DNA from: Thermomicrobiales bacterium
GTDB lineage: Bacteria; Chloroflexota; Chloroflexia; Thermomicrobiales; CADCWN01
Direction: 5' to 3'
Assembly: GCA_030446685.1 (NCBI GenBank)
Contig: JAUJMV010000006.1
Location: forward strand, 153,256 to 199,411
DNA length: 46,156 bases
Shown: positions 10,163 to 22,737 of the stretch, piece by piece
Numbering within the stretch: position 1 is the first letter of the stretch
How the letters are laid out: each line of letters begins with the position of its first letter
Translations under genes and position numbers: made by a program
The notes under the pieces: model-generated
Seen by the model: the letters and a program-made list of their open reading frames with translations, nothing else
What the model was told of the DNA's origin: nothing
Database searches by the model: none

Positions 10163-10200
10163 TTGACCAGGCAAGCTGCCCCCCGTACACTGTACGTACG
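10163..10200 (+). promoter_or_regulatory. rep1 promoter with TGTACGTAC palindrome
   Basis: TTGACC (10163-10168), a 17-bp spacer, TACACT (10186-10191), then TGTACGTACG (10191-10200) beginning on the last base of the -10 box. The parA operon promoter at 20399 and a duplicate at 19513 have the same geometry. A shared repressor binding at the transcription start is inferred. Confidence 0.65.
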
Positions 10201-10233
10201 TGTTCGGCCCGGCGGCGACGAGGGGAGGCGGCG

Positions 10234-11934
10234 ATGGTCAGGGCGGTGGTGGTCGATCCGGGGAGCGGCGAGGGGCTGACGTTCGGGCAGGCCTGCGAGA
10301 TGCTGGCGGTCTCCTCGACCGAGCTGGCCTCGCTGCGCGAGCAGGGGCTGGTCGCCTGCCTGCGCCGGGGGAGCCGCCAGGTCTACCCGCGCGAGGCGCT
10401 GATGCTGACCCGCCGGCTGCTCAGCCTGGGGCGCGAGCGGGACTGGGGGCCGGCGACGCTCTGCTGGTACGCCGATCTGGTCTTCGCGGGGCAGATCGGG
10501 CGCACGATCCTGCTGCCGACGCCGGCGGGCGAGGCGCCGCAGTCGCTCCAGCCGCCGCGGAGCTGGCTGGAGACCGGCCACGTCGCGGCGGTGCTGCACG
10601 ACCTGGAGGCGCTCGACGGCGGGCTCGACCCGGACGGCCCCGGCGAGGACGAGCCCCTGGTCGCGGTCCTGCGCAGCCTGCTGGCGATCGCGCTCGGCCC
10701 GGACCAGCACTGGCCGGACCTCCCGGCGTTGCAAGGGTCGGCGCTCTACCCGATCGTGGTCGACCTGGAGGCGCGCGGGGTCCCGACGCTGAACCAGGCC
10801 CCGGCGATCGCGCGGGACGCGCCGCAGATCTTCATGGCGCTGGTTCTGGCCTTCACCGCGATCGCGCCGCCGCTCGCGGGCGAGCTGGGGGAGCTGGTGC
10901 GTGCGATGCACGCCAAGTTGAAGGGCCATCAGGCGCTGGAGACGGCGGTGCCGGCCGAGGAGCAGACGGTGATCACCCGCGAGGAGTTCATCGCGGTCGA
11001 CAAGTTCTACGCCGGCAAGGCCCCGGAGATCCACAAGCCGCCGGAAGCCTGGAACGTGGAGGTCGGGATCGTCAGCGCGCAGCAGCGGACGGTGGCGCTG
11101 CAGATGCGGCTGCCGGACGAGATCCCGCAGCACACGATCGACAACATCATCGACCTGATCCGCCCCTTCCTCGGCCCCTACGGCGCGCGGGTGGTCCACC
11201 TGCTCTACGAGGTGGCGAATGACCCGCCCTACTGGCGCAACCCGCACATCACGATCGACACCAACGAGCTGCTCGACCGGCTGGGGGCGAAGCGCGACCG
11301 GCGCGGCGTCCACCAGTCGCGCAACCGCGAATTGCTGCGCAACGCGCTCAACAGCGCGCACAACCTCGAGATCCACGCCGAGTACACGACCAAGGAGGGG
11401 GGGCGGCCGGTGCGCAAGGTGGTGCGCAAGACGATCGTCTCGCTGACCGGGGCGACCTTCGACGCGGCCGAGCACCAGAGCCTCTCGACCGAGGAGCTGT
11501 TCCAGCGGGGGCTGCCGAAGTCGATGAACATCCGGCTCAATTTCTACGAGGGGGTGCGCCGCCCGGACGGCCGGCTGGGCAACCAGTACGTGCTGATGCC
11601 GCGGCTGGCGGAGCCGAAGGCGCTGGCGAAGGCGAACCACGCGGCGACGCACGAATTGCTGCGCGCCTACTTCCTCTTCCGCTACCGGCAGACGCGGATG
11701 AAGAACCAGACGCTGACGGTGATGCGGCAGACCGCGCTGGAGAAGGCGAACATCAAGAACAAGAACCCGCGCATGGCGACGCAGACGCTGCGGAAGGCGC
11801 TCGACAAGCTGGTCGCCGGGGGCACGCTGGAGGGCTACTCGCCCGAGCTGCCGACCAAGCCGCAGGGGACGTTCGAGGTGACGCTGGCGCAGTCGGCCGT
11901 CCACACCTTGCCGCTGGGGGGGGACGAGGGGTAG
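10234..11934 (+). CDS. Candidate replication initiator Rep1 (no recognised family)
   Basis: 566 residues from ATG 10234 behind GGGGAGG. The N-terminus (about 10-60, LTFGQACEMLAVSSTELASLREQG) resembles a MerR/excisionase helix-turn-helix. Two later regions look like winged helices: TNELLDRLGAKRDRRG with RELLRNALNSAHNL (about 350-385), and QTALEKANIKNKNPRMATQTLRKALDKLVAGG (about 500-535). The C-terminal half is rich in Arg and Lys. I do not recognise the family. The initiator role is inferred from the two winged-helix-like segments, the adjoining iteron cluster, rep2 and parAB. It could instead be a regulator. A hairpin terminator follows. Confidence 0.6.
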   Translation: MVRAVVVDPGSGEGLTFGQACEMLAVSSTELASLREQGLVACLRRGSRQVYPREALMLTRRLLSLGRERDWGPATLCWYADLVFAGQIGRTILLPTPAGEAPQSLQPPRSWLETGHVAAVLHDLEALDGGLDPDGPGEDEPLVAVLRSLLAIALGPDQHWPDLPALQGSALYPIVVDLEARGVPTLNQAPAIARDAPQIFMALVLAFTAIAPPLAGELGELVRAMHAKLKGHQALETAVPAEEQTVITREEFIAVDKFYAGKAPEIHKPPEAWNVEVGIVSAQQRTVALQMRLPDEIPQHTIDNIIDLIRPFLGPYGARVVHLLYEVANDPPYWRNPHITIDTNELLDRLGAKRDRRGVHQSRNRELLRNALNSAHNLEIHAEYTTKEGGRPVRKVVRKTIVSLTGATFDAAEHQSLSTEELFQRGLPKSMNIRLNFYEGVRRPDGRLGNQYVLMPRLAEPKALAKANHAATHELLRAYFLFRYRQTRMKNQTLTVMRQTALEKANIKNKNPRMATQTLRKALDKLVAGGTLEGYSPELPTKPQGTFEVTLAQSAVHTLPLGGDEG

Positions 11935-11943
11935 GGCGCGGAG

Positions 11944-11985
11944 CGTAGGGCGTAGGGCGTAGGGCGTAGAGCGTAGGGCGAAGGG
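11944..11985. repeat. Tandem 7-bp repeat after rep1
   Basis: Six consecutive heptamers of CGTAGGG, with variants CGTAGAG and CGAAGGG, start ten bases after the rep1 stop. Comparable 7-bp arrays follow the S9 peptidase gene and lie between the two Gfo/Idh genes. Confidence 0.8.
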
Positions 11986-12026
11986 GCGCCGGGGCGAGGA
12001 GAATTCCTCCCGCCCCGGCGCCCTTT
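11981..12026 (+). terminator. Long hairpin terminator after rep1
   Basis: AAGGGGCGCCGGGGCG (11981-11996) pairs with CGCCCCGGCGCCCTTT (12011-12026), and the inner AGGAG/CCTCC arms extend the stem around an AATT loop. It separates rep1 from the iteron region. Confidence 0.7.
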
Positions 12027-12080
12027 CGTATTCCGGCGCCCATCGGTGGCGGCGGAGGGGCGTCCACGGCCGGGTGAATG

Positions 12081-12951
12081 TGTGAGTGGCATGGACGCCC
12101 ATCCGGGTAGCGTTTCCGCGCTGCAATGGGCGAGAGCCGGCCCGCTGGCACCGTGGCGGGGCCGGGTGGCGCGCGTCCGGGGCGTCCACGGCTGGGCGTC
12201 GTGTGAGCAGCGTGGACGGGCGACGGGCGAGGTGAGCGGTGGGGCGGGGGTGTCCACGACGCGGCCGGGGTGTGAGCAGCGTGGACGCCGCGCCACGGGG
12301 CCGAGGAGGGCTGTGGTGTGAGTAGCGCGGACGGCCACTGGGAGCGGCGGCGGGGGATTGCGGTGTTGTCGTGAGCGATGGGACGCGCGTCCCGACCGGA
12401 ACAGCGGCGGCGAAAGCGTCCACGGTCAGGTGGATGTGTGAGCAGCGTGGACAATCGGGCAGATCCCGCGTCGGTAGGGTGGTGCGAGTGGCGTGGACGC
12501 CGTCCGTGGGGCGGGCGCGGGTGGCGGGGCTGTGTCGCGTGGCGCGGACGGATGGCGGGGGATTGCAGCCCCCGACGATGGCGAGGGGAGGCGCGACCCT
12601 CGACGAGGGGCATTCGTACGAGAGGGAAGGCGCGAGCGGCTCGGGGGATGGCGGCAGCGGCGGCCGGGCCGGCGCGTCCACGCCGCCTCCGATGTGTGAG
12701 CAGCGTGGACGCGTGGACGCGCGCGGGACCGTCCACGCTCCGGTGCAGGGTGTGACCAGCGTGGACGATCGGTGTGAGCAGCATGGACGATCGGTGTGAG
12801 CAGCGTAGACAGCGGGGCCGTCCACGCCGCTCACACGCGCGGCCTGTGATTTTCCCGATCCGGATCGCGTTCCTGCCACCTCTCGGTCGGGCGAGAAAGG
12901 GCGCGCCGCCAGGGAGCGGCGGGGCGACGTACACCGTCCACACTGCTCACA
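12081..12951. repeat. Iteron cluster, probable replication origin
   Basis: The 17-bp consensus TGTGAGCAGCGTGGACG occurs with 0-4 mismatches in direct orientation at about 12081, 12202, 12271, 12317, 12369, 12437, 12483, 12695, 12751, 12773 and 12795, with a more degenerate copy near 12531. Two copies are inverted, at 12819-12835 and 12935-12951. Three copies at 12751-12811 are spaced exactly 22 bp, two helical turns. Extra half-sites (CGTCCACG) occur between them. The cluster fills the 1.27-kb gap between rep1 and rep2. No convincing gene is present in this interval. Iterons beside rep genes are the standard plasmid origin layout; the function here is inferred. Confidence 0.8.
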
Positions 12952-12996
12952 CATCGGGCGGAACGTGGACGCACCGCCTGGAGACCGCGATTCCTC

Positions 12997-13032
12997 CTTA
13001 TAAGTAGTATTGCAACATGTATTGTCGTTAAC
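12997..13032. other. AT-rich patch beside the iterons, candidate unwinding region
   Basis: A 36-bp stretch (about two-thirds A+T, including TTATAAGTAGTATTGC) stands out in surroundings near 75% GC. It borders the last iteron and precedes rep2. It could be the DNA-unwinding element, the rep2 promoter, or both. I see no good DnaA box. Confidence 0.45.
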
Positions 13033-13207
13033 CCCGGAGACCTGCCCAAGTCGTCGCGCGTGGCGCAGACTAGGGTGGCCGTGGTGCGGGCGGCGGTGAC
13101 ACCGATGGGGCGCCGGGGACGGTTCGATCGAGCACCGGGGCCGGTGGGGGTGTCGGGGGTTGGCCGGGTGGCCGAGGGGTGACGCGGGCGCGGGACGGGA
13201 GGTGGCG

Positions 13208-14797
13208 ATGACGGCGAAACCCACGGCGGCGGGCCGTGCGTCCACGCCCACGCCCATCTCGTTCGAGACGAAGCGCCGGGTGCGGCTGGCCGAGGGGCAG
13301 CGCCGGGGCTTCGAGAGCGCCTGGAACGAGTATTACGACTGCTACGCCAGCACGACCTACCTGGAGAAGCCGCTGATCAAGCTGGAGGACATCGGCTATC
13401 ACCTCTACCTGAAGAAGAACATCAGCCGGACCGACCCGACCTGGGAGCTGCCGTCGTTCCGGCAGCAGATGCGGACGCTCGACCTGAGCCAGGACAAGAT
13501 CCAGGCGATCGAGGCGCGGCTGGGGCGGGCGGGGCTGCTGGTCAAGGAGTCGGGGCGGGGCCGGGGGCCGCGCGGCGAGAATGTCGCCAATGATTATGTC
13601 CTCTACGAGCCGCAGGAACTGGGCGACTTCCTGGCGGCGGTCGAGCGGGGGGAACTGCCGGGGGCGCTGAACCCGAAGGGGGTTCAAAAGCTGGCGGCGC
13701 TGCGGGCCAGGTTACTGAACGGCGACGGCGCGACCCCCGGCGCGGACAAGGACCGGGACACGGACCAGCGGGAGACTGCCGCCCCCGCGGAAACAACGGC
13801 CGATCCCCCACGGGAGGCCAGGCGCCGGAAGGGGAGCCATGGGACGGATCGGGCCGCCGAGCAGGGTCGGGCGGCGCCGGCTGGCGGGCACACCGGCGAC
13901 CAGGAGGGGGCGAGCCCACAACCCGCGCGCCCTGTAGCGAAAATCACTACACCCCCTGTAGCGGAAAGCGGTACACCTACCGTATCACCCAGCCGTACAC
14001 CCCCTGTAACGACGGGCGGTACAGACAACAGACGAGCTTCAACACACGAAACCCAACAGACGGAACAACAACAGCCGACCCGCCCGGCAACGGCAGGACC
14101 TGGCCCAACACCCCTTGTTGTTGTTGCTGATAATCAGAGCGCTTTGGTGCAAGGGTTGGTCGAACGGGGGATTACCGCTCATGTGGCGGAGCAGTTGGCG
14201 ACGCAGGCGCCGGCGGCGCGGATCGTCCAGCAGAGGGCGGTGTTCGATTTCCTGCGCCGGGAAGCGCCGGACGATCCGCGCCTCGGCCCCGGACGGTTGC
14301 GGCGGATGATCGAGGCGGACTGGACGCCGCCGCCGGAGTTCGGCAAGGAGGCGGGGCGGCCGGAGCCGGGAGGGGCGCCGCCCGCCGCTCGCCAGGACGC
14401 CGGGCCGAGCGCGGCCCAGGCCGCGCGGCAGGCGACGCTCGATGCGATCGGCGCGACCGCGGCGGACCAGGTGCTGTGGGACCGGCTGGCGCTGGAGGCG
14501 CCCCGCCTCCCGCCGCTCTTCCGGGGCGCGATCTTCCACGCGCCGGGGGGCGACGCGCCGGCCGCGCTGATCTTCCCCGACCGCGAGGCGTGCGCGCGGG
14601 CGCAGAGCGCGGCCTACGCGGCGGAGCGACAGCGGATCGCGCGGCGGGTCGGCGCGCACTACCGCCGCCCCTGGGTGCGGGTGGTCTGCCTGGCCTATGA
14701 GGAGGTGGCGCGGTTGTTGGAGGCCCCCGGTGGCCTGGATGCCCCTTCCGGCGCGGAGGACGGCTCCTGCCCGCCGCCCCGGCGGGGGGATGGCTGA
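13208..14797 (+). CDS. Candidate replication initiator Rep2
   Basis: 529 residues from ATG 13208 behind GGGAGG. The N-terminal 160 residues look like a winged-helix DNA-binding unit (FRQQMRTLDLSQDKIQAIEARLGRAGLL, then NDYVLYEP). A long Pro/Thr-rich, probably disordered linker (about 190-305) contains 8-residue repeats encoded by 24-bp DNA repeats. The C-terminal part has LVQGLVERGITAHVAEQLATQ, followed by a segment ending LRRMIEADWTPP. That pattern resembles the conserved C-terminal helices of some phage and plasmid replication proteins. The family is not certain. It is convergent with uvrA. The initiator role rests on this pattern and on the iterons upstream. Confidence 0.6.
   Translation: MTAKPTAAGRASTPTPISFETKRRVRLAEGQRRGFESAWNEYYDCYASTTYLEKPLIKLEDIGYHLYLKKNISRTDPTWELPSFRQQMRTLDLSQDKIQAIEARLGRAGLLVKESGRGRGPRGENVANDYVLYEPQELGDFLAAVERGELPGALNPKGVQKLAALRARLLNGDGATPGADKDRDTDQRETAAPAETTADPPREARRRKGSHGTDRAAEQGRAAPAGGHTGDQEGASPQPARPVAKITTPPVAESGTPTVSPSRTPPVTTGGTDNRRASTHETQQTEQQQPTRPATAGPGPTPLVVVADNQSALVQGLVERGITAHVAEQLATQAPAARIVQQRAVFDFLRREAPDDPRLGPGRLRRMIEADWTPPPEFGKEAGRPEPGGAPPAARQDAGPSAAQAARQATLDAIGATAADQVLWDRLALEAPRLPPLFRGAIFHAPGGDAPAALIFPDREACARAQSAAYAAERQRIARRVGAHYRRPWVRVVCLAYEEVARLLEAPGGLDAPSGAEDGSCPPPRRGDG
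13930..14025. repeat. Four 24-bp repeats inside rep2
   Basis: Units start at 13930, 13954, 13978 and 14002, a period of exactly 24 bp. Units 1, 2 and 4 contain CCCTGTA(G/A)CG and end in TACA, so each carries a TGTA...TACA inverted repeat. Unit 3 is more diverged. In protein they give PVAESGTP-like octapeptides. They may be Rep-binding sites embedded in the gene, as in lambda O, or simply a coding repeat. Confidence 0.65.
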
Positions 14798-14891: not shown

Positions 14892-17756
<2,865 letters not shown>

Positions 17757-19697: not shown

Positions 19698-20045
19698 TCA
19701 GGACGAGAGCGGCAGGCCGAGCTGCCGCTGGATAGCGCGCTCTACCTGCCGCAGATCGTCCGGTAGGAGCCGTCCAATGGCGTCCCCGAGGCGCTCCTTC
19801 GTGGCGGTGGTGAGTTGGTCCGCCATGGCCTTCCGTTCCACTCCGTTGAACGTGATGCGCGCCTCGCTGGGATAGAGGCGCGCGGTGTTCGTGGTGAGCG
19901 GCACCACCTGGACCCGGTTGGCGAAGCGGTTGGAGATGTCGTTACTGACGATCACCGCCGGGCGCCGCTTGCCGATTTCGCCGCCGCGCGCCATCGAGAA
20001 ATCGACCCAGTACACCTCGCCGCGATGGATGGCGCGCTGGCTCAT
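19698..20045 (-). CDS. MazF/PemK-family endoribonuclease toxin
   Basis: 115 residues from ATG 20045, overlapping the antitoxin stop (ATGA). Typical features are [10 protein letters not shown] at the start, [23 protein letters not shown] and the C-terminal [13 protein letters not shown]. The family cuts mRNA, usually at short specific sequences, until neutralised by its antitoxin. Length and motifs are normal, so it looks functional. It lies between the two copies of the par-operon promoter, as expected for a replicon-stabilising module. Confidence 0.9.
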
Positions 20046-20266
20046 GCCGAGGTCTCGCCGATCAACCCCTCGCTCCACTCGCGGGCGTCCGCTTCGCGCT
20101 CGGCGTCGGCGGCCATGGCGCGATAGCCCTCCTCGAGATCGGCCGCCGTGAGTAGGTGCGGCCGGACCAGTTCCTCGATAAAGCCGCTGATGCGCCCCCG
20201 CCCGATCTGCTCATGCAGCCCCTGATAAACCTCTTCCGCGATTGTTATGGTCAATTTTCGTTGCAT
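20042..20266 (-). CDS. Ribbon-helix-helix antitoxin (MazE-type partner)
   Basis: 74 residues from ATG 20266. [20 protein letters not shown] starts a ribbon-helix-helix N-terminus (strand RKLTITI, then two helices), followed by an acidic C-terminal tail ([23 protein letters not shown]) suited to binding the toxin. It precedes and overlaps the MazF-type gene. The palindrome at 20282-20305, directly upstream, is the likely autoregulatory operator. Confidence 0.85.
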
Positions 20267-20493: not shown

Positions 20494-20715
20494 ATGCGGG
20501 AGAAGCGGGCGCGGTGGGGCCGGCCGCCGCTCGACGAGGAGCGGCGCAACCGCACGATCACCTGCTATTTGGAGTGTCGCCAGATCGCGCGGCTGGACGA
20601 GCTGGCCGGCGCGCAGGGGCGGTCGCGCAACGACCTGATCCGCGAGGCGGTGCGGGCGTACCTGGGCGCCACGGGGGACGGTGGCACCCAGGCGGGGCGG
20701 GAGGAGAGGGCATGA
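20494..20715 (+). CDS. Ribbon-helix-helix regulator of the par operon
   Basis: 73 residues from ATG 20494. An in-frame start at 20452 is possible, but the decayed duplicate suggests 20494. RTITCYLECRQIARLDELAGAQ followed by SRNDLIREAVRAYLG is a CopG/Arc-type strand-helix-helix. The basic N-terminus (REKRARWGRPP) may contact DNA. Its stop overlaps the parA start (ATGA). In small plasmid partition systems such a protein often represses the operon and can bind the centromere. That role is inferred from position and fold. Confidence 0.8.
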   Translation: MREKRARWGRPPLDEERRNRTITCYLECRQIARLDELAGAQGRSRNDLIREAVRAYLGATGDGGTQAGREERA

Positions 20716-21533
20716 AGCGGGAGCGCATCGTCGCCATCGTCAATCGCAAGGGGGGCAGCGGCAAATCGACGACGACGCTGAACCTCGCCGGGGCGCTGGC
20801 CGACCTGGGGCTGCGCGTGCTGGCGGTGGACCTCGACCCGCAGGCCTCGCTGACCCGGCTGCTGAGCGACGACCCGGTCGAGCGGGGGATCGGGGCCTGC
20901 ATCTCCGCGCCGGGGCAGTCAGCCGCCGAGCTGATCCGCAACACCGGGGCGGGGATCGACCTGCTCCCCGGCGACCGCTCGATCGAGGCGGCGGCGCTGG
21001 CGCTCAACGACTCGCCGGCCGGCTTCCTGCGCCTGCGGCGGGTGCTGGCGCGGCTGGAGGGCTACGGGGTGGTGCTGCTCGACACGCCGCCGGCGCTCGG
21101 CTTCGCGGTGTCGAGCGCGGTCCTGGCGGCGGGCTGGGCGGTGTTGCCGACGGCGACGACGCAGCAGGACATCGACGCGCTGGTGGACACGTTGGGGGCG
21201 ATCGACGAGCTGGCGGAGGACGAGATGCACGGCGCGCGGCGGCTGGCGATCGTGCCGAACGCGGTCCACCGCGACCGGCCGGACCAGGGGGGGCTGGCGG
21301 CGCTGCAGGGGGCCTACGGCGAGCTGGTCGCCGCGCCGATCCCGCACGCGGCGGCGATCAAGCGCGCCCTCAACCGCCGGCTGCCACTCTCGCGCACCGA
21401 GCCGGGGGCGGCGCCGATGGCGGCCTACCGGGCGCTGGCGCGGCGGGTGGCGGACGCGATCGCGGGGCCGGCGCCGGACGGGGCGGGGGCCGCCCCGGAG
21501 AAGGAGGCCGCCCATGTCGGCGCGATCGTCTAA
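20712..21533 (+). CDS. parA: ParA-family partition ATPase
   Basis: 273 residues from ATG 20712. It carries the deviant Walker A KGGSGKST (residues 13-20), Walker A' VDLDPQASLTR, and Walker B VVLLDTPP. No N-terminal helix-turn-helix is present, unlike type Ia plasmid ParA, so autoregulation probably depends on the separate ribbon-helix-helix protein. It overlaps parB by 20 bp. It drives segregation of the replicon by ATP-dependent nucleoid binding, stimulated by ParB. Confidence 0.93.
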   Translation: MKRERIVAIVNRKGGSGKSTTTLNLAGALADLGLRVLAVDLDPQASLTRLLSDDPVERGIGACISAPGQSAAELIRNTGAGIDLLPGDRSIEAAALALNDSPAGFLRLRRVLARLEGYGVVLLDTPPALGFAVSSAVLAAGWAVLPTATTQQDIDALVDTLGAIDELAEDEMHGARRLAIVPNAVHRDRPDQGGLAALQGAYGELVAAPIPHAAAIKRALNRRLPLSRTEPGAAPMAAYRALARRVADAIAGPAPDGAGAAPEKEAAHVGAIV

Positions 21534-22737
21534 CCGCCGCCAGGCCGAGATCGCGGTGATCCGGCCCGCCCAGCCGCGCGCGACCTCCGAGGCGATGCGC
21601 GGGGCGACCGAGCGCCGGCTGCCGGGCGCGATGGAGGTGCCGATCGAGCAGGTGGTCGCCGATCCGGGGCAGCCGCGCAAGGACTGGGCGCACGACGACG
21701 GCGAGCGGCGGCTGGCCGAGCTGGCCGACAGCATCCGCGAGTTCGGGATCATCCAGCCGCTGCTGGTCCGCGAGGAGGGGACGATCGCGGACGGCCGCCA
21801 GCAGTACGTGATCATCGCGGGGGGGCGGCGGCACGCGGCGGCGCTGCGGGCGGGGCTGACGCTGGTGCCGGTGGTGATCCGCGGCGACGAGGCGGCGCGC
21901 GTGCGCATCCTCCAACTGCTCGAGAATTTGCAGCGGCAGAGCCTGAGCGCGCTCGACGAGGCGCGCGCCTACCAGGAGTTGATCGATCTCGAAGGGCTGA
22001 ACCCGCCGGGGCTGGCGGAGCGGCTGCACGTCTCGGCGCAGCACGTCCGCGACCGGCTGCGGGTGCTGGCCGACCAGGTGCTGGCCGACGCGGTTGAGCG
22101 GCGGCAAATCTCCAATACGGCGGCGCGCGAGATCATGAAGCTGCCGGACGAGGAGGTGCAGGCGTTCCGGACGCGCGTGCTGGCGGGCGAGCGGTTGCAG
22201 ACGAACGATGTGGTGGCGGCGCGGGCGCGGCTGGCGGCGGCGGGGATCATCAACCCGCGGCGCAAGGTGGGGCGGGCGGCGGAAGGGCCGGCGACCGTTC
22301 CCGGCGACGATCCGCCGGTGGTCGAGACCGCCGCGCCGGGGTCTGAACCGGCGCCGGGACAAACGACGTTTGTCCCGCCCGACGCGCACCCGGAGCCTGG
22401 GGCCGGAGCCCTATCGCCCGGCCCCCCTCTGCCGGGGCCTGGGGCGGAACAGCCGGAACAAACGGCGTTTGTCCCGGCGCGCGAGCCAGTGATCGGCCCC
22501 GCCCCGGCAGCGCCCGATGCGGTGACGCTGCCGGGTGAACTGGCGGAGGTGGCGGAGCGGGTGGCGGCGGCGCTCGACCGGACGCTGTGGGGCGAGGCGC
22601 GGCAGCAGGTGGCGGAGGCGCTGGCGGCGCTGACGGACGAACCGGCGCGGGTCGCCTGGTGGCTGCTGGTGGACGCCGGGGTGCGCGAGCGATTGACCCA
22701 GCCGGGGTGGAAGGGCCGGCCATCGGGCGACGATTGA
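21514..22737 (+). CDS. parB: ParB-family centromere-binding protein
   Basis: 407 residues from ATG 21514 behind GAAGGAGG. The ParB/Srx CTPase domain (about 40-140) has VVADPGQPRKDW, LADSIREFGIIQPLLVRE and the GGRRHAAALRAG motif, then LLENLQRQSLSALDEARAYQ. The helix-turn-helix part has LHVSAQHVRDRLRVL. A Pro-rich linker (about 265-330) encodes two GQTTFVP/EQTAFVP segments whose DNA forms palindromes. The C-terminal 75 residues are helical, probably the dimer domain. A hairpin terminator follows. Confidence 0.93.
   Translation: MSARSSNRRQAEIAVIRPAQPRATSEAMRGATERRLPGAMEVPIEQVVADPGQPRKDWAHDDGERRLAELADSIREFGIIQPLLVREEGTIADGRQQYVIIAGGRRHAAALRAGLTLVPVVIRGDEAARVRILQLLENLQRQSLSALDEARAYQELIDLEGLNPPGLAERLHVSAQHVRDRLRVLADQVLADAVERRQISNTAAREIMKLPDEEVQAFRTRVLAGERLQTNDVVAARARLAAAGIINPRRKVGRAAEGPATVPGDDPPVVETAAPGSEPAPGQTTFVPPDAHPEPGAGALSPGPPLPGPGAEQPEQTAFVPAREPVIGPAPAAPDAVTLPGELAEVAERVAAALDRTLWGEARQQVAEALAALTDEPARVAWWLLVDAGVRERLTQPGWKGRPSGDD
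22355..22377. promoter_or_regulatory. Palindrome in parB, candidate centromere site 1
   Basis: Arms CGGGACAAAC and GTTTGTCCCG match perfectly around GAC. The coding uses CAA and TTT codons where the gene otherwise prefers CAG and TTC, which suggests that the DNA itself is under selection. It does not match the canonical parS TGTTTCACGTGAAACA. Confidence 0.5.
22453..22477. promoter_or_regulatory. Palindrome in parB, candidate centromere site 2
   Basis: Arms CCGGAACAAAC and GTTTGTCCCGG (one mismatch) surround GGC, 99 bp centre-to-centre from site 1. The core ACAAAC...GTTTGT is shared with site 1. It encodes the second QTAFVP segment of ParB. Confidence 0.5.

Follow-up and report, generated by a model that had tools for sequence, protein, structure and literature searches.

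The closest described counterparts of the locus reported here are the iteron initiators RctB (ori2 of Vibrio chromosome 2), RepE (mini-F) and pi (R6K), together with the origin of phage lambda. The 12-mer sites of RctB contain TGATCA, according to the available text of PMC5395669, and the lambda origin, as outlined in the accessible part of PMC6022878, is formed within gene O by four iterons, each an 18-bp inverted repeat, and an adjoining adenine–thymine (AT)-rich region. Among the Chloroflexota, Candidatus Chlorohelix allophototropha, a phototroph, has circular chromosomes of 2.96 and 2.45 Mb (available sections of PMC10972752), and Pfam searches of the chromid-like replicons of Ktedonobacteria are reported, in the accessible portion of PMC13289182, to have found no canonical Rep initiator. 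Here we analyse a stretch of 46,156 nucleotides (the window) from a Thermomicrobiales bacterium (assembly GCA_030446685.1, below G000; contig JAUJMV010000006.1, positions 153,256 to 199,411), in which two genes, A and B, occur with one repeat array between them and a second inside gene B. We read these genes and arrays as the replication core of a large secondary replicon using two initiators, with a probability of roughly 0.6; the origin reading is kept because predicted structure, recurrence and the two arrays agree.

Two genes and two repeat arrays

The module comprises the following features, numbered within the window.

10234–11934, + strand: gene A (566 amino acids), predicted N-terminal MerR-like helix-turn-helix and predicted C-terminal double winged-helix region; candidate iteron-binding initiator
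12080, 12201, 12270, 12316, 12436, 12482, 12694, 12750, 12772 and 12794, + strand: array 1, direct copies of an 18-bp repeat
12819 and 12935, − strand: array 1, inverted copies of the 18-bp repeat
12062, 12184, 12252, 12418, 12676 and 12731, − strand: GTCCAC inverted half-sites, 17–19 bp upstream of a direct copy
12981–13040, no strand: AT-rich patch between array 1 and gene B, 40–42% guanine plus cytosine (GC)
13208–14797, + strand: gene B (529 amino acids), N-terminal part (low-confidence model), disordered linker and conserved C-terminal half; 35 homologues
13932–13950, 13956–13974, 13980–13998 and 14004–14022, no strand: array 2, four 19-bp imperfect palindromes within gene B, repeating every 24 bp exactly
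14021–14160, no strand: AT-rich stretch immediately downstream of array 2, with many rare codons

Array 1 holds 12 copies of GTGTGAGCAGCGTGGACG that match at 15 or more of 18 positions and span 12080–12952, ten of them direct and two inverted. When these 1273 bp were shuffled 200 times under a first-order Markov model, sites with at least 14 matches averaged 0.11 and never exceeded 2. With matching relaxed to the best 15-mer and as many as 3 mismatches on either strand, the region gives 16 sites, compared with a mean of 5.25 and a maximum of 9 in 20 shuffles. The original prediction, drawn from the sequence alone, had at least 14 mostly direct copies of a 17-bp repeat; the array is real and mostly direct, with 12 good copies of 18 bp, and 14 are reached only by looser matching. 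Its final three direct copies are spaced by 22 bp, about two helical turns, and the GTCCAC half-sites precede six of the ten direct copies; for random positions, the share with such a half-site at a distance of up to 25 bp is 16%. The AT-rich patch that had been predicted to border the array is present, and may be an unwinding element or the promoter of gene B.

Both flanking proteins had been described as carrying winged-helix-like segments of no known Rep family, and indeed both fall below every Pfam and NCBIfam cut-off. Protein A of the window has no match to Pfam Rep_3 (PF01051) at an expectation value (E) of 10, none of the 64 A-family members is listed for this model at E 0.1, and no Pfam Rep model is listed for any of the 64. 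The structure search with the predicted model of A nevertheless places the fold closest to the iteron initiators RctB, RepE and pi, with domains 2–3 of RctB as the best match, and residues 12–91 are predicted to adopt a MerR-like fold. A is a candidate iteron-binding initiator of the RctB/RepE kind. In protein B, the predicted fold of the C-terminal domain (residues 417–497) best matches DnaA domain I, which makes it a likely helicase-binding part.

Array 2 is a feature absent from the original prediction. Its palindromes, of the type TGTAnCG ... CGGTACA, fall within the linker of B, which is predicted to be disordered at residues ~173–307 (predicted local distance difference test score below 50). 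All four phased valines are encoded by GTA (1.2% of valine codons in the genes counted on C96, the scaffold of the window) and all four phased threonines by ACA (2.4% in the same genes), and the motif, found at four sites, reached at most one site in 20,000 random synonymous recodings of gene B. This motif was defined only after the sequence was seen, and the claim for B of the window rests on the rare-codon test. Given the rare codons and the recoding result, selection in array 2 seems to act on the DNA rather than on the protein. Both arrays and the rare-codon signature are direct observations. Motifs resembling the array 2 half-site, GTACA/TGTAC, also lie at 10185–10195, upstream of gene A, and at 12929, beside the last copy of array 1; gene A could possibly be controlled by B through them.

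The linkers of 29 window-type B orthologues (29 of 34 alignment rows, five not being delimited) contain V...[GS]T 69 times, whereas shuffles give 5.9, and 31 of 41 gaps between occurrences are multiples of 8 residues; 11 of the 29 rows exceed all their own shuffles, and B of the window, with 2 hits, does not. B genes of another family (f10) carry a different palindrome, GGTAAACnnnGTTTACC, in at least four copies each. In genomes G123 and G124 the gaps between these palindromes are 22, 42, 23 and 45; as two of these, 22 and 23, cannot be divided by 3, the palindromes are read in two frames, and a simple protein repeat does not account for them. A motif-free palindrome test found the observed count in at most 1 of 60 codon shuffles for all five f10 B genes, that of G126 included, and in 3 (G137), 3 (G130), 15 (C13), 26 (G103), 49 (G134) and 56 (G135) of 60 for other B genes. 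In a plain k-mer test, four of the five f10 B genes, one other f10 gene (C58) and one control (gene A of the window) lie above all 25 shuffles; B of the window does not. As proof of repeats in B of the window, the palindrome and k-mer tests both fail and were set aside.

The f10 homologues of B, which keep intragenic palindromes, match Phage_rep_O (PF04492) through an O-like N-terminus. Two of them, scanned singly, exceed the Pfam cut-off for PF04492, with B of G123 below the NCBIfam cut-off for TIGR01610, and PF04492 is listed at E 0.1 for 4 of 34 members of the B alignment. The f10 C-terminus, in a single comparison with the DnaA domain I profile, gives E 0.0019, with a probability of 14% over 74 columns; the HHalign comparisons covered the first 29 rows of the 34 in alignment A4. 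Five further homologues (P0116–P0120) keep the C-terminal half and begin with one or two other winged-helix-like modules, a case of domain swapping.

Recurrence of the module and the Chlorohelix chromosomes

Gene A was found in 2 of 41 genomes in a near search. Wider searches found it in 7 of 158 genomes of the class and 6 of 400 of the phylum, and a search of the class of G192 found it in 3 of 47. Eleven loci were read, of which ten are testable on both flanks; G001, whose contig ends inside A, was left out. An array above all 20 shuffles lies beside A in nine of these ten, the window included (G000, G123, G124, G125, G127, G192, G202, G230 and G342). The repeats vary by lineage (GTGTGAGCAGCGTGGACG; GTGTGGTCTGCGGTAAA; GGTGCGGTTACTCATAA; TTCGTGGGGTCTGCTAAA), often with a pitch of 22–23 bp, as expected if protein A and its site co-evolve. 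The order A–array–B is common to the window, four f10 genomes and G202, whose B′ is differently built; in f10, A lacks the MerR-like part and the array adjoins A in four of five genomes. A phage or plasmid origin was rejected, no homologue of A having been found in viral contigs or in plasmid records.

The genome G126, with contigs of 2,961,161 and 2,453,413 bases, matches Ca. Chlorohelix allophototropha. On contig 1 (chromosome 1), which begins with dnaA, A stands alone near 2.5735 Mb. On contig 2 (chromosome 2), the interval 2.0928–2.0950 Mb holds a GTGTGGTATGCGGTAAA repeat in seven copies together with a B gene that has palindromes inside it. The array remains with B although A sits on the other chromosome; this split, like the recurrence of arrays beside A, is read straight from the DNA. 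Protein A of G126 may act in trans on chromosome 2.

In three genomes, G192, G342 and G230, A is accompanied by an array, and inspection by eye of the stretch read revealed no B. This would fit A being the sole initiator at array 1, in the style of iteron plasmids, with B an accessory winged helix-turn-helix protein whose palindromes merely autoregulate it. We regard this as decidedly unlikely, considering the DnaA-domain-I-like predicted fold of the B C-terminus, the O-like N-terminus among B homologues and the joint presence of array and B on G126 chromosome 2 with A on chromosome 1. The classic iteron-controlled replicon with two initiator candidates that had been proposed for the window survives in part: two initiator-like proteins surround an array, A keeps its own array in nine of ten testable loci and its predicted fold is nearest RctB, RepE and pi, but the layout goes beyond the classic one in the palindromic array within gene B and the likeness to lambda O in other members of its family.

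Flanking genes, skew and the possible site of initiation

The following genes lie downstream of B.

14892–17756, − strand: uvrA, the next gene after B
20709–21533, + strand: parA (AAA_31, E 2.6e-24)
21514–22737, + strand: parB (ParB_N, E 2.5e-21; TIGR00180 above cut-off)

The parA and parB genes, which the original prediction had placed 6 kb away, are supported by Pfam and lie 6 kb beyond B. Their side varies: in the window they follow B, and in f10 they precede A, from which other genes separate them in G127. No standard parS occurs in the window within 3 mismatches. Just before parA lies a small open reading frame (19698–20078, − strand), which we take by eye to encode a PemK/MazF-type toxin.

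With parAB so close, array 1 might instead be a centromere or operator array and A its partition or transcription regulator, B alone initiating from the intragenic array. The MerR-like fold predicted for A residues 12–91 would suit such a role, as would the distribution of B: of the 158 class genomes, 15 have a B-type match and 7 have A, and 8 of the 15 lack A. On contig C2 of G137 (1,074,634 bases, the length given for chromosome 2 of Thermobaculum terrenum in the available text of PMC3035366), ~5 kb separate one of these B-type genes from a parA-like gene. However, the C-terminal predicted fold of A is nearest to initiators, no parAB was recognised around A and its array in the stretches read for G192 (18 kb) and G342 (3.7 kb), and f10 A, which lacks the MerR-like part, still has an array beside it in four of five cases. 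We consider this alternative unlikely.

Evidence for an active origin is the weakest part of the case. A GC-skew minimum had been anticipated at 12–13 kb and was not found there. On C96, the strand-corrected GC skew shows a clear replication-type switch at ~98 kb for genes of either strand. This point is some 65 kb away from the array and 55 kb ahead of the window, and the module itself shows no switch. On contig C77 of G123, a raw local skew minimum at 118 kb disappears after strand correction, leaving no usable skew. With 61 samples from G126 chromosome 2, the square-wave fit places the origin best at 1.98 Mb, the array (2.094 Mb) lies in the top 2.8% of positions, and permutation values are 0.05 at the array and 0.21 for any position. 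A 41-sample run put the best origin at 2.10 Mb, with permutation values of 0.006 and 0.15; neither third-position skew nor coding bias on this chromosome points to the array. As proof of an origin, GC skew fails on C96, is uninformative on C77 and is weak on G126 chromosome 2, where it weakly favours the origin reading.

The C96 switch gives weight to a serious rival, in which the module is a former plasmid core, intact but retired, the replicon fires elsewhere (near 98 kb on C96) and A and B persist as regulators or relics. That G126 keeps a lone A on its dnaA-bearing chromosome points the same way. Against retirement stand the intact reading frames of both genes, the intact arrays, the rare codons kept in array 2 and the conservation of the module in a second family. 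Moreover, within 94–106 kb of C96 no initiator gene was recognised by eye, and none of the direct-repeat families listed there (20 out of 39 and 20 out of 37) has more than three copies. On this balance, retirement appears improbable.

Besides the skew of C96, C77 and G126 chromosome 2, several results weigh against the two-initiator reading. The best Foldseek E-values are weak (0.011 for A, 0.55 for B). The C-terminus of B of the window gave no sequence profile match to DnaA domain I, the protein has no match to PF04492 or TIGR01610 at E 10, and no helicase-loader gene (P-like) was recognised by eye from gene B up to parA. In the motif-free palindrome test, 3 of 60 shuffles reached the observed count for B of the window, a GC-rich gene, which is not significant; 10 of 12 control genes stood at 8 or more of 60, and uvrA (3) and a peptidase gene (2) perform as well as B of the window. 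Finally, A is rare (7 of 158 class and 6 of 400 phylum genomes), and no homologue occurs among 72,556 plasmid records.

The setting of the module is a 266-kb scaffold with 8 assembly gaps and no transfer RNA. As a mark of a core-gene replicon, uvrA is not decisive, a second uvrA being present in pieces on contig C12 of G000 (196383–199240); it matches in four pieces, the result of an assembly error or a broken gene. The G000 assembly (7.04 Mb, 85% complete) contains no true DnaA (best match 51 bits), and one of its two weak matches reads by eye as an IstB-like transposase helper. A genuine lack of dnaA was rejected. With the assembly incomplete and DnaA exceeding the cut-off in 36 of the 41 genomes examined, among them G001, the gene more probably lies on a missing contig than has been lost. 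G000 has six ParB matches, five of them passing the cut-off; they are spread over five contigs, which suggests several replicons. Further B-type matches lie within ~4–5 kb of ParB genes on other contigs (C13:54261–55130; C52:8713–8922, a short open frame). Single iteron 16-mers, three exact and one with 1 mismatch, occur at C34:116432, C46:9957, C108:4960 and C97:25190, directly downstream of a common element, (T/C)TCGACATAA, at or near gene starts. Some of the genes there read by eye as tyrosine recombinases, and these may be tied to the replicon.

Proposed mechanism and comparison with known origins

In the two-initiator reading, A would bind the intergenic 18-bp iterons as RctB or RepE do, with pairs of direct copy and inverted half-site perhaps acting as self-limiting dimer sites, and B would bind the four palindromes in its own gene in the manner of lambda O. 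The AT-rich stretch beside array 2 would open, the DnaA-domain-I-like C-terminus of B would recruit the replicative helicase, and parAB would segregate the products. A bolder extension, which we hold only tentatively and think on the whole doubtful, is an origin of second chromosomes specific to Chloroflexota, with RctB-like A on an iteron array beside lambda-O-like B with the origin in its own gene; in Chlorohelix, A from chromosome 1 would act in trans, the main chromosome thereby controlling the firing of chromosome 2.

Listings of the open-access literature on Chloroflexota iterons, replication initiators and secondary chromosomes showed no described system of this kind (most subscription journals being outside this scope), nor a description of how replication starts on the second chromosome of multipartite Chloroflexota; the words replication, dnaA and initiator do not occur in the text of PMC10972752. 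The two-initiator reading would bring together in a single bacterial replicon two origins familiar from textbooks, the iteron type and the intragenic type of lambda. Of the two protein families involved, each with its own array, Pfam misses one entirely and the other almost entirely; a closed, enriched organism, Chlorohelix, carries the parts on different chromosomes.

The Ktedonobacteria chromid-like replicons are likewise Chloroflexota secondary replicons without a canonical Rep by Pfam, as far as the accessible portion of PMC13289182 goes. In contrast to the present locus, A was found in none of 29 genomes searched in f30, probably Ktedonobacteraceae, and so does not explain those replicons. 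RepE, pi and other iteron plasmids resemble the locus in the double winged-helix fold predicted for A, the 22-bp pitch of the last copies, the AT-rich patch and parAB, but the 64 A-family members have no Pfam Rep model listed and A of the window has an additional MerR-like N-terminal part. Lambda O and its origin are alike in the four 18/19-bp palindromes within the initiator gene, the AT-rich stretch downstream (available part of PMC6022878) and the O-like N-terminus of f10 homologues; unlike lambda, B of the window has no O-model match and ends in a DnaA-domain-I-like predicted fold, with no P-like loader gene recognised beside it. From RctB and ori2, the locus differs in an 18-mer consensus without GATC, in the presence of another initiator-like protein whose gene contains an array of its own and in having no sequence match found. 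It resembles them in the predicted fold of A, nearest RctB domains 2–3, in the iteron array and in the secondary chromosome of the Chlorohelix-matching genome, and the direct copies of array 1, with their composites carrying an inverted half-site, recall the 12-mer and 39-mer site classes of RctB described in the available text of PMC5395669.

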